The position numbers were made by a program, and so were the translations under genes. Below, piece after piece: positions 3,996-10,968 of a stretch of 15,144 nt of DNA (the first letter of the stretch is position 1; every line of letters begins with the position of its first letter). The notes beneath the pieces are model-generated. The model was not told the origin of the DNA. It searched no databases and saw nothing but the letters and a program-made list of their open reading frames with translations. Location of the stretch: the NCBI GenBank assembly GCA_021775385.1, contig JAJFHW010000144.1:1-15144 (forward strand). Direction: 5' to 3'. The stretch is from Hyphomicrobiales bacterium. GTDB taxonomy: Bacteria > Pseudomonadota > Alphaproteobacteria > Rhizobiales > HXMU1428-3.

Positions 3996-4937
3996 ATGAA
4001 CCAAGAAGACGATAAAAAAGAAATAGCACGAATAAAGGCTCAAAAAGAGCGACCTGTCGCTCGTGTTCAAGATGTGATGGATGGACTGTTAAGCCAGCCT
4101 CTTTTGCCTGCGCTTTACTTAGTGGCAACACCCATAGGCCATTTGGCAGATATCAGTCTTAGAGCTCTTGGTGTTCTCGCAAAAGCTGATTTTGTTGCCG
4201 CAGAAGACACGCGTCATTCAAGAAAACTCCTGCAAAATTATGGAATATCAACCGAAATGATCAGTTATCATGATCATAATGGTGATCAAATGCGGCCGAA
4301 AATCATAAGAATGATTAAAGAGGGGCGCGCCGTGGCCTTAATATCCGATGCAGGCACACCATTAATTTCTGACCCTGGCTATAAATTGGCAAAACTTGTG
4401 CGTGAAGCCGGGTTAAGAGTTGAAGTTGCACCCGGTGCCAGTTCTGTCATGGCCGGTCTTTGTCTTTCAGGCCTACCAACTGATACATTTCTCTTTGAGG
4501 GCTTTCTTCCACCCAAGCAAGTAGCAAGATGTAAACGTTTGGAAACACTAAAATCCATTGAAGGAAGCTTAGTGTTTTTTGAAACGGCAAAGAGAATTGA
4601 AGCCGTAGTCCAAGACGCCCTCACTGTTTTAGGAGATAGAGAGGCTAGCGTTTTACGCGAGATAACCAAAGTTCATGAAGAAGTCATCGATGGCAAATTA
4701 AGTGATATAAAAACTCTTCTGGAAAACAGAGATTTAAAAGGAGAGATCGTTTTTATCATAGGTCCACCTCTTTTAGCAGCCATCACAGATGAAGAAATTG
4801 CTGAGGCACTGAAGAACCATTTATCTGAAGGGGCGAGCGTGAGAGATAGCGTATCTGAGGTTATGACTGGCTTGAACTTACCTAAAAAAAGAGTTTATGA
4901 CCTCGCCTTAAAGCTTAAAAAAGAGCTTGATGAATAA
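3996..4937 (+). CDS. rsmI: RsmI, 16S rRNA (cytidine-1402 2'-O)-methyltransferase
   Basis: RsmI uses SAM to 2'-O-methylate C1402 in the decoding centre of 16S rRNA. The 313-aa protein carries the tetrapyrrole-methylase fold with the family landmarks in order: YLVATPIGHLADISLRAL from residue 41, AAEDTRHSRKLL at 68-79, LISDAGTPLISDPGY at 115-129, PGASS at 146-150, and LPTDTFLFEGFLPPK at about 160-174. A roughly 38-residue charged N-terminal extension precedes the core and makes it longer than the usual 280-290 aa. The ATG at 3996 has no clear Shine-Dalgarno, so an internal start such as the ATG at 4077 cannot be excluded. It overlaps the yraN start by 8 nt, indicating co-transcription and probable translational coupling. 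Confidence 0.95.
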   Translation: MNQEDDKKEIARIKAQKERPVARVQDVMDGLLSQPLLPALYLVATPIGHLADISLRALGVLAKADFVAAEDTRHSRKLLQNYGISTEMISYHDHNGDQMRPKIIRMIKEGRAVALISDAGTPLISDPGYKLAKLVREAGLRVEVAPGASSVMAGLCLSGLPTDTFLFEGFLPPKQVARCKRLETLKSIEGSLVFFETAKRIEAVVQDALTVLGDREASVLREITKVHEEVIDGKLSDIKTLLENRDLKGEIVFIIGPPLLAAITDEEIAEALKNHLSEGASVRDSVSEVMTGLNLPKKRVYDLALKLKKELDE

Positions 4938-6363: not shown

Positions 6364-6565
6364 GTGACGGTTGCTGGTGGGCAACCGAAGTGCCGCTAAA
6401 AAGAATAGCCGTGAGAGAGCTAAAGCTCTAAGTTGACTGTACGAAGAAGGAGCTCAGCCTATTTCGAGCTGAGGGACATGACGCCGGGGGCGTCCGGCGC
6501 AAGCGCCGCCCCTCGGAGGCCCATGAGCTAAAGCTCATGGAATAGCGGTGAGAGAAAAAGCACAA
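6364..6565 (+). repeat. Structured intergenic repeat element, copy B
   Basis: The element lies between gshB and an unknown operon. In order it has the 37-bp-type module with a perfect hairpin (GGTTGC 6369-6374, TGGTGG loop, GCAACC 6381-6386), GAATAGCCGTGAG (6403-6415), a small hairpin (AGAGC 6416-6420, TAAA, GCTCT 6425-6429), CTGTACGAAGAAGGAG (6437-6452), hairpin 1 (CTCAGC 6453-6458 with GCTGAG 6468-6473), GGACATGACGCC (6474-6485), hairpin 2 (GGCGC 6496-6500 with GCGCC 6503-6507, extended by GGGGC/GCCCC and GCC/GGC), CCCTCGGAGGCC, hairpin 3 (CCATGAGC 6521-6528, TAAA, GCTCATGG 6533-6540) and AATAGCGGTGAGAGAAAAAGC. The conserved blocks match copy A nearly exactly, whereas the hairpin arms differ and still pair, as expected for a selected RNA or single-strand DNA fold. 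I do not recognise a known RNA family. Confidence 0.85.
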
Positions 6566-10443: not shown

Positions 10444-10968
10444 TTGACCGCGAACAGAAATTCTTATGAAGAAATAAGAGCAGGCCTAAGGCAACTGTTT
10501 CCAAAACTCTGGCGTTATTGCCTGTTTTTAACAAGGTCTTCCCATGCAGCAGATGACCTGGCGCAAGCATCTTGCCTTCGCGCGTTAGAAAAAGCTAACC
10601 TCTATAAATCAGATACAAATTTAGATGGATGGGTATTTCGCATAGCCCAAAGATTATGGCTAAATGAACTACGCTCACAATCCACAAGAACCGGACAGGG
10701 CTGTTCGCCAATTGAAGAATATGACCTGGCAGATACAAATTTAGATCCTGAAATGAATATTTTAGGCAAAGACGTGTTATTAGCTATAGATACATTGCCA
10801 GAAGCCCAAAGAATGACTGTTATATTGGTCTATGTAGACGGATTTAGCTATAAAGAAGCGGCTGAAATCCTTGAAATACCAGCAGGAACTGTAATGAGCA
10901 GGTTAGCCGTTGCTCGCAAAGCAATCGCTACTCAATTTAAAGATGATGAAAGCCAAAAAGATGAGTGA
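10444..10968 (+). CDS. ECF-type RNA polymerase sigma factor (second pair)
   Basis: The 174-aa protein consists of sigma region 2 (FPKLWRYCLFLTRSSHAADDLAQASCLRALEKA, then LDGWVFRIAQRLWLNELRS) and region 4 (LPEAQRMTVILVYVDGFSYKEAAEILEIPAGTVMSRLAVARKAI), with no regions 1 or 3, as in ECF sigma factors. It is related to the sigma factor at 8590-9111 (shared GT-MSRL and YKEAA motifs) and directs RNA polymerase to its own promoter set. The start is a TTG at 10444, as no in-frame ATG precedes region 2 and the frame is closed by a TAG at 10408. No good Shine-Dalgarno is visible, so expression may be low or the start imprecise. It overlaps its anti-sigma gene by 8 nt and is divergent from the DUF4399 gene, with about 80-105 nt between them. 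Confidence 0.9.
   Translation: MTANRNSYEEIRAGLRQLFPKLWRYCLFLTRSSHAADDLAQASCLRALEKANLYKSDTNLDGWVFRIAQRLWLNELRSQSTRTGQGCSPIEEYDLADTNLDPEMNILGKDVLLAIDTLPEAQRMTVILVYVDGFSYKEAAEILEIPAGTVMSRLAVARKAIATQFKDDESQKDE

Follow-up and report, generated by a model that had tools for sequence, protein, structure and literature searches.

The window, by which we mean the whole 15,144-nt stretch of DNA analyzed here, contains two copies of an element that is a folded repeat of about 120 bases, consisting of four hairpins, a helix designated P5 and a lone base pair designated N1-N2. Its fold, its copy number and its strand polarity in the window's genus are solid. The best reading of the element is that it is REP-like in lifestyle and probably represents a new family, the comparison with RIME and Bru-RS being by description. 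Our preferred explanation, to which we assign a probability of about 45%, is that this is a non-autonomous, non-coding family of hairpin repeats that would spread via a single-stranded intermediate at the replication fork. Bacteria commonly carry dispersed hairpin repeats, the best-studied of which are linked to RAYT transposases. The family described here occurs across a class and combines an RNA-grade fold with near-absolute polarity in one genus and with the lack of a RAYT-type transposase in a copy-rich genome (G002). It makes testable how transposase-less alphaproteobacterial repeats multiply, and the element would offer a natural read-out of fork direction.

Limits and parts of the element in the window

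The genome to which the window belongs (G000) is a 2.88-Mb draft of 400 contigs and is 79% complete. We scanned the window, with filters off, using a covariance model (R1) made from 27 G000 copies. The two copies scored 130.1 and 105.5 bits, partly by construction as both are among the 27 training copies, and the third-best match reached 11.3 bits. An initial annotation had placed the copies at 6364-6565 and 2085-2322; a sequence check found both of them there, with the shared blocks in the order that it gave. These limits are too wide, and the element proper occupies 6439-6558 (copy B) and 2168-2284 (copy A). Outside the element, the stretch 6364-6438 contains a short hairpin repeat of another kind (6370-6385) and a stray 3′ tail (6403-6416), perhaps a truncated older unit, and 2285-2322 contains a diverged copy of the short hairpin. 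The element copies and their parts are as follows.

6439-6558, + strand: element copy B, whole, 120 nt (model R1, 130.1 bits; row of alignment A1)
2168-2284, + strand: element copy A, whole, 117 nt (model R1, 105.5 bits; row of alignment A1)
6440-6452, + strand: conserved unpaired 5′ leader TACGAAGAAGGAG of copy B (alignment A1)
6453-6473, + strand: hairpin P1 of copy B, 6453-6460 with 6466-6473 (A1 helix 1; 6 of 8 pairs changed on both sides)
6480-6494, + strand: hairpin P2 of copy B, 6480-6485 with 6489-6494 (A1 helices 2-3)
6495-6508, + strand: hairpin P3 of copy B, 6495-6500 with 6503-6508 (A1 helix 4; helix 1 of alignments A4 and A6)
6510-6516, + strand: lone pair of copy B, N1 (6510, C) with N2 (6516, G) (pair counts over copies)
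6512-6554, + strand: helix P5 of copy B, in the register dictated by other families; 6512-6514 pairs with 6552-6554 on the outside (CTC/GAG) and 6518-6520 with 6545-6547 on the inside, where this copy has one G.G mismatch; between the two parts is the internal loop G-N2-A x GUGA (6548-6551)
6521-6540, + strand: hairpin P4 of copy B, 6521-6528 with 6533-6540 (A1 helix 7; 7 of 7 pairs changed on both sides)
6403-6416, + strand: stray copy of the element 3′ tail, GAATAGCCGTGAGA (sequence match)

In alignment A1, the element starts with TACGAAG and ends with GTGAGAGAAAA. The conserved linker GGACAT lies directly 5′ of hairpin P2 in copy B, and a conserved AATA follows directly 3′ of hairpin P4. 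Copy A is flanked by a radical-SAM protein gene and a convergent periplasmic-binding/LppC-like gene, and copy B by glutathione synthetase and an ORF without a Pfam match. A small ORF within the element (ATG...GAATAG) was set aside by eye; the P3 loop varies in length by one base and no frame is kept. We also set aside the idea of an autonomous element with its gene between two copies: one such ORF encodes enoyl-CoA hydratase and two have no Pfam match.

Covariation supports the fold

The initial annotation had noted that three hairpins differ in sequence between the two copies and still pair, and covariation in alignment A1 shows this to be real. Across its 27 rows, 95.0% of 934 cells are paired, compared with 83.3% in shuffles, and 20 of 35 pairs carry changes on both sides. 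The covariation score is 0.362 versus 0.150 for shuffled data and is reached by none of 500 shuffles, with kinship kept in the data. The proposal of a selected fold is upheld by strong covariation in larger alignments. For the 3′ core (A4; 60 rows), the score was 0.343 versus 0.121 with the first P5 register used and 0.362 versus 0.120 with the revised register; for alignment A6 (53 rows, 51 distinct, several families), it was 0.358 versus 0.103. As with A1, none of 500 shuffles reached the score of the 3′ core or of A6; these shuffle tests ignore relatedness, so that they are strong but not phylogenetic. When partners were slid by 1-3 columns, the score fell below 0.1 in each alignment. The case for the fold is based on covariation because the advantage of single sequences over shuffles in folding is only moderate (+ strand, z of -2.20 and -2.41; - strand, -2.71 and -1.01), and the minimum-energy folds of single sequences differ from the consensus fold.

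The linkers listed in the initial annotation are conserved and in order, but some are more than linkers: CCCTC...GAGGCC and GTGAGA pair across its third hairpin and form an extra helix. This helix, P5, is made of CTC/GAG and GGC/GCC, with the internal loop GNA x GUGA between them. A first register, which was proposed by RNAalifold and paired CTCG with TGAG, was rejected as two bases off; over 53 rows, one of its pairs would be A.G eight times and G.G twice, and the following pair G.A ten times and A.A once. Both R1 and the core model R2 carry this wrong register. P5 covaries across families (CTC/GAG, CGC/GCG, ATC/GAT and GTC/GAC), and the middle pair of its outer part is UA in 40, GC in 10 and AU in 1 of 51 sequences in A6. 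The lone pair N1-N2 was counted in two forms, leaving out the 54 of 241 copies that fit neither spacing. In the 5-spaced form (164 of 241 copies), it is CG in 100, AT in 46, GC in 8, TA in 1, GT in 1 and mismatched in 8, giving 155 of 164 Watson-Crick pairs and one wobble; in the longer, 6-spaced form, all 23 are Watson-Crick. By fixed A4 columns, N1 and N2 pair in 49 of 60 rows. P4 is the least regular helix in A6, with 69.5% of cells paired. Unpaired positions in the core are conserved across families.

We then compared G.T with A.C mispairs over 241 distinct copies, mostly from the window's genus and some from other Hyphomicrobiales. The ratio of G.T to A.C was 37:16 in P2, 46:10 in P3 and, in P1, 60:24 without and 67:54 with one misaligned pair, amounting for P1-P3 to 143 versus 50 without and 150 versus 80 with that pair. 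It was reversed in P4 (22:29) and about equal in 26 rows of other families (12:11). A near-constant G-T combination (216 of 234) was left out of these counts, as it is not a pair and is an artefact of the wrong P5 register. The nucleotide skew of the element strand at fourfold-degenerate sites, described below, would by mutation favor A.C. Given the excess of G.T over A.C in P1-P3, the written (+) strand is therefore likely the folded one in the window's genus, as judged from these mispairs. RNA and single-stranded DNA both tolerate G.T.

Copy number and distribution

Many further copies of the element were found in the genome by blastn and R1. Searching with the interval of the initial annotation, blastn returned 52 matches in G000 at E<=1, a few of which cover only short hairpin or palindromic bits. 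At E<=0.1, R1 matched at least 150 copies in G000 (best 150 of 697 candidates scored) and at least 150 in the 99%-complete congener G002 (best 150 of 920 candidates scored), as well as 144 in G001, 53 in G004, 34 in G007, 12 in G016 and one in G017. All eight genomes of the window's genus gave blastn matches. Beyond the genus, R2 was run with strict filters, scoring the best 13 or fewer candidates per genome; it matched 66 of 397 genomes of the order at E<=0.001, representing 36 of 141 genera, and 11 of 385 genomes of a class sample at E<=1e-4, G000 being among the 11. Tandem element arrays were found at loci L129, L166 and L240.

No match to the DNA pattern of the element was detected in viral contigs, nor any blastn match in plasmids. 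Pattern matches outside the alphaproteobacteria, which among the matches listed fell in Nitrospiraceae, Prevotellaceae, Balneolales, Myxococcaceae, Pseudomonas and Granulicella, were dismissed as chance, because R1 gave none of them a match at E<=1 in a run that covered 80 of the 82 loci (all but L150 and L151). The R1 E value of a pattern match in Sphingomonadaceae (L145) was 0.25.

Orientation follows replication in the window's genus

In G002, 148 of the best 150 scored copies lie on one strand per contig, as do 47 of 50 copies in G004 and 31 of 34 in G007, where the majority strand was set for each contig, so that contigs with a lone copy match it trivially (one copy in G002, two in G004 and seven in G007). 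No solitary site in G002 is on the wrong strand (0 of 108). Seven of the eight wrong-way copies in these three genomes lie within 600 bp of a right-way copy, with their 5′ ends facing; the remaining one is at G007 C38:52677.

In the sampled windows, G and T at fourfold sites are scarcer on the strand of the element. The GC skew of this strand at these sites (GC4) is below zero in 28 of 29 G002 windows and in all 23 G004 windows (one about 0), and its TA skew (TA4) in 29 of 29 and 22 of 23, respectively. G002 yielded a single 16S match, a gene on the - strand of contig C1; of the 38 element copies on that contig, 36 are on the + strand. In the window under study, both elements and all four matched companion hairpins (see below) are on the + strand, and the fourfold skews average about -0.16 for GC and -0.18 for TA. 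As judged from fourfold skew on contigs without a mapped oriC, the strand of the element in the window's genus most likely has the lagging-strand sequence.

Coding sequence opposite the element makes up 55% in G002 and 50% in G004, and is the richer only in G002. Relative to the element, 43 copies with clear neighbors in windows of G002, G004 and G001 and in the window itself have gene contexts of ++ (18), -- (12), +- (10) and -+ (3). Twelve of the 43 copies are antisense to both neighbors, and genes therefore do not explain the polarity. In the window's genus, orientation follows replication, not genes. The polarity is absent in five other genera, where, among 20 windows (G085, G148, G233, G255, G036 and G019), 10 had a negative GC4 and 11 a negative TA4 on the element strand. 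The fourfold strand skew itself is strong in the G002 and G004 windows (GC4 down to -0.56) versus <=0.19 in the 20 windows of other genera.

A shorter hairpin repeat, G[AT]TGCn3-5GGGCA[AT]C, whose sequence is unlike that of the element, accompanies it as GTTGC...GCAAC or GATGC...GCATC. Its occurrences in the window are listed here.

6366-6402, + strand: companion hairpin next to copy B, core 6370-6385 (direct-repeat family D1)
2287-2323, + strand: diverged companion hairpin next to copy A (direct-repeat family D1, 62% identity)
21-151, + strand: tandem array of the companion hairpin, 37-bp, 3.5 units, cores at 48, 85 and 122 (Tandem Repeats Finder)

Across the G002 windows, 78 of 82 companion hairpins are on the strand of the element, and those more than 1 kb from any element are all on the polar strand (38 of 38, in 20 clusters). 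The companion is also nested in the P1 and P4 loops of the element. The two repeats, though unlike in sequence, agree in polarity, which speaks for a common route.

Genomic sites and turnover

Among 47 of 50 G002 copies that have both neighbors, identified by simple ORF calls with tandem copies counted singly, the 3′ end of the element lies <=25 nt from the stop codon of a convergent next ORF in 14 of 21 cases, and its 5′ end <=25 nt from an upstream stop codon in 1 of 30. A terminator at the 3′ end was considered as a general rule and rejected as too weak: among the 158 of 241 distinct copies that passed flank and lineage filters, a perfect stem of >=8 within 60 nt was found downstream in 18, upstream in 11 and far downstream in one. 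Visual inspection of the alignments revealed no terminator-like T-run 3′ of the fold.

In the single-contig genomes G085, G148 and G233, all eight sites at E<=0.1 adjoin the 3′ end of a tRNA gene at 2-11 nt, in convergent orientation; a weaker G233 match (L261:11608-11662) is not at a tRNA. The same adjacency was seen in one of four G019 windows, in none of eight windows of G255 and G036, and in none of the sampled windows of the window's genus, where the nearest tRNA in G002 is 2.3 kb away. Element arrays occur at the 3′ ends of tRNA-Leu, -Arg, -Met, -Ala and -Ser in low-copy genomes (L257-L264 and L273). Read on the tRNA strand, the units of the tRNA-Leu arrays in G085 terminate in GCACCA or GCACCC and resemble tRNA 3′ ends.

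Local inverted pairs occur, and at orthologous sites hairpins have changed and still pair. An alignment of 60 kb of G002 with 48 kb of G003 gave nine orthologous sites. Eight were comparable, and at six of these eight the helices are nearly unchanged. At one of the sites, both-side changes left four pairs paired and two broken, with two more broken one-sidedly; at another, six changed pairs stay paired and one is broken on one side. At a site common to G006 (HSPs of 70-80% identity), eight or nine pairs changed on both sides are paired, two are broken, and one or two are broken one-sidedly. Most sites examined are common to G002 and G003. One tandem unit differs between them, and G003 has an extra inverted copy. 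Comparison of G002, G003 and G006 uncovered no clean empty site with exact ends.

Known families and enzymes

The statement in the initial annotation that the element matches no known family agrees with our searches of Rfam 15. At E<=1, no family matched over the element in the window, where the only hit was a sub-threshold CRISPR-DR17 at 4298-4322, and none of 13 matches in 12 loci of relatives lay over the element; four loci searched at the gathering threshold gave no match. Nor does the element fall under the definition of a REP of the GTAG or CGTC superfamily. No description of it was found in the literature searched, the scope of which left out most subscription papers.

Palindromic intergenic repeats are known from the same order as the host, namely RIME, Sm-repeats and ABC palindromes in rhizobia and Bru-RS1/2 in Brucella. 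The element resembles these in being palindromic and intergenic; the comparison is by description only, and the available parts of those descriptions mention no strand polarity, unlike the element in the window's genus. In the tyrT operon of E. coli, the rtT RNA repeats form a tandem directly after a tRNA gene and contain part of the tRNA 3′ end. Similarly, GCACCA/GCACCC recurs on the tRNA strand at the unit borders of the tRNA-Leu arrays in G085. Unlike rtT, however, the element is linked to tRNA genes only in low-copy lineages, its fold is antisense to the tRNA, and it has no Rfam match.

According to the parts of PMC3733652 available, REPs are 20-40 bp palindromes with a GTAG or CGTC tag, the CGTC ones being mainly HH dimers, found mainly in alpha-Proteobacteria and apparently without a dedicated transposase. 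Like REPs and BIMEs, the element is high-copy, intergenic, hairpin-based and often 3′ of genes. It differs in its length of about 120 nt, its five helices and the absence of a GTAG/CGTC tag at its ends, and in being mostly solitary or in direct tandem, on one strand per contig; the terms leading strand, lagging and replichore do not occur in the main text of PMC3733652. Orientation follows replication, via the lagging-strand template, in IS200/IS605 single-stranded DNA transposons and RmInt1-type group II introns, as described in the available parts of PMC5371812 and PMC8914252. The orientation of the element is likewise set by replication, in the window's genus only, but its folded strand most likely has the lagging-strand sequence, the complement of the lagging-strand template used by IS200/IS605. 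Unlike IS200/IS605 and the RmInt1 introns, it has no Y1 or RVT_1 domain to go with it in copy-rich G002.

We searched for two enzyme domains, PF01797 and PF00078. The first (Y1_Tnp) was found in one of nine genomes (G003) and not in G002 with its >=150 copies, whereas 5 of 14 control genomes contained it; the Y1 gene expected in the genome of a REP moved by RAYT is thus missing from G002. Two Y1 transposase matches are present in G003 (L152 and L153; C1:11.5-15.4 kb). The second (RVT_1) was found in 7 of 26 genomes and in two of eight in the window's genus (G004 and G006). It was not found in G002 or G003, so that neither has the PF00078 match expected in the genome of a group II intron or other reverse-transcriptase element.

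Explanations for spread and polarity

From its copy number we infer that the element spreads, and it may be both mobile and transcribed. We further infer present-day movement, a single-stranded intermediate, a mobilizing enzyme, template switching, and recombination as the cause of exchange. The fold may act as RNA or as single-stranded DNA. In the model that we favor, what defines the family would be how one strand folds, namely the strand written in the window, and the element would have multiplied in the window's genus to at least 150 copies in some genomes. The most likely route to a new copy would be a single-stranded form at the fork, with either the folded strand itself or its copy recognized in trans and joined as lagging-strand sequence. 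Wrong-way copies would originate locally, by template switching beside a right-way copy, and recombination through the conserved linkers would swap helices between copies, so that pairing is kept and sequence changed. Fork-coupled spread is favored because an unlike hairpin shares the polarity far from any element and because wrong-way copies are local. We count against it that neither of the two enzyme domains searched for was found in G002, that no clean empty site emerged and most sites examined are common to G002 and G003, that polarity is absent in the five other genera, that G.T and A.C are about equal in other families and reversed in P4, that coding sequence opposite the element is not richer in G004, and that neither viral contigs nor plasmids gave a match. 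A bolder form of this model, which we regard as unlikely though worth stating, is that spread is enzyme-poor or uses an unknown enzyme, and that the element is a SINE-like, RNA-structured passenger that inserts as lagging-strand sequence only, shares its polarity with a second hairpin family, had its origin at, or docks to, tRNA 3′ ends and reports the direction of forks along the chromosome.

The main rival to fork-coupled spread is a selected RNA role at gene 3′ ends. The element would then be a functional structured RNA, its polarity reflecting selection on orientation: a nascent RNA transcribed head-on to replication would fold at the 3′ end of the opposing gene and stop or process antisense transcription, shielding leading-strand genes and forks. 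The conserved unpaired positions and the covarying lone pair do look like RNA tertiary structure, and the positions at convergent stop codons (3′ end in 14 of 21, 5′ end in 1 of 30), the eight sites next to convergent tRNA 3′ ends in G085, G148 and G233 and the sites common to relatives all point the same way. We nevertheless think this role rather unlikely, since in 21 of 43 copies the gene downstream is on the same strand as the element, the number of matches varies from zero at E<=0.001, as in 331 of the order's 397 genomes, to at least 150, no terminator-like T-run was seen by eye 3′ of the fold, and the short companion hairpin has the same polarity without the fold of the element. Passive spread, in which GC-rich hairpins on the lagging side multiply through slippage and template switching with no dedicated enzyme, would suit the tandem arrays (L129, L166 and L240), the inverted neighbors, the nesting of the companion in the P1 and P4 loops and the lack of Y1 and RVT_1 in G002; by itself, it leaves unexplained more than 100 separate sites and the conserved unpaired core positions across families, and we consider it quite unlikely. 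It is very unlikely that the element is a REP/BIME family moved by a RAYT (a Y1 tyrosine transposase): it is dispersed, intergenic, hairpin-based and mosaic, and congener G003 has two Y1 genes, but Y1_Tnp is missing from eight of nine genomes, including 99%-complete G002, and the element has about 120 nt, five helices and ends without a GTAG or CGTC tag. Finally, compensatory pairs could arise purely from quasi-palindrome correction in DNA, without selection on the fold, which would fit stems that are often perfect and discrete hairpin types that look converted. This origin is highly improbable, as P5 pairs bases flanking P4 and covaries, N1-N2 covaries, and G.T exceeds A.C in P1-P3, though not in P4 or in other families.

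Other folded modules and arrangements

Contig C2 of G255 (approximately 75-80, 463-478 and 501-507 kb; partly L251) carries many copies as inverted pairs with their 5′ ends facing, in contrast to the window's genus, in which copies stand alone or in direct tandem. At L089 and L090, element copies are followed directly downstream by CGTC/TGTC-type REP-like palindromes (TGTCATCCCGGGC..CCCGGGATCC). A recurrent insert in the P3 loop (GATCAGCCCG..CGAGTACGGATAAGCTGATC) looks like another small folded module; it was observed in G002 (L155:7379-7565 and 10604-10811) and at orthologous sites in G003 (L178:14748-14955).
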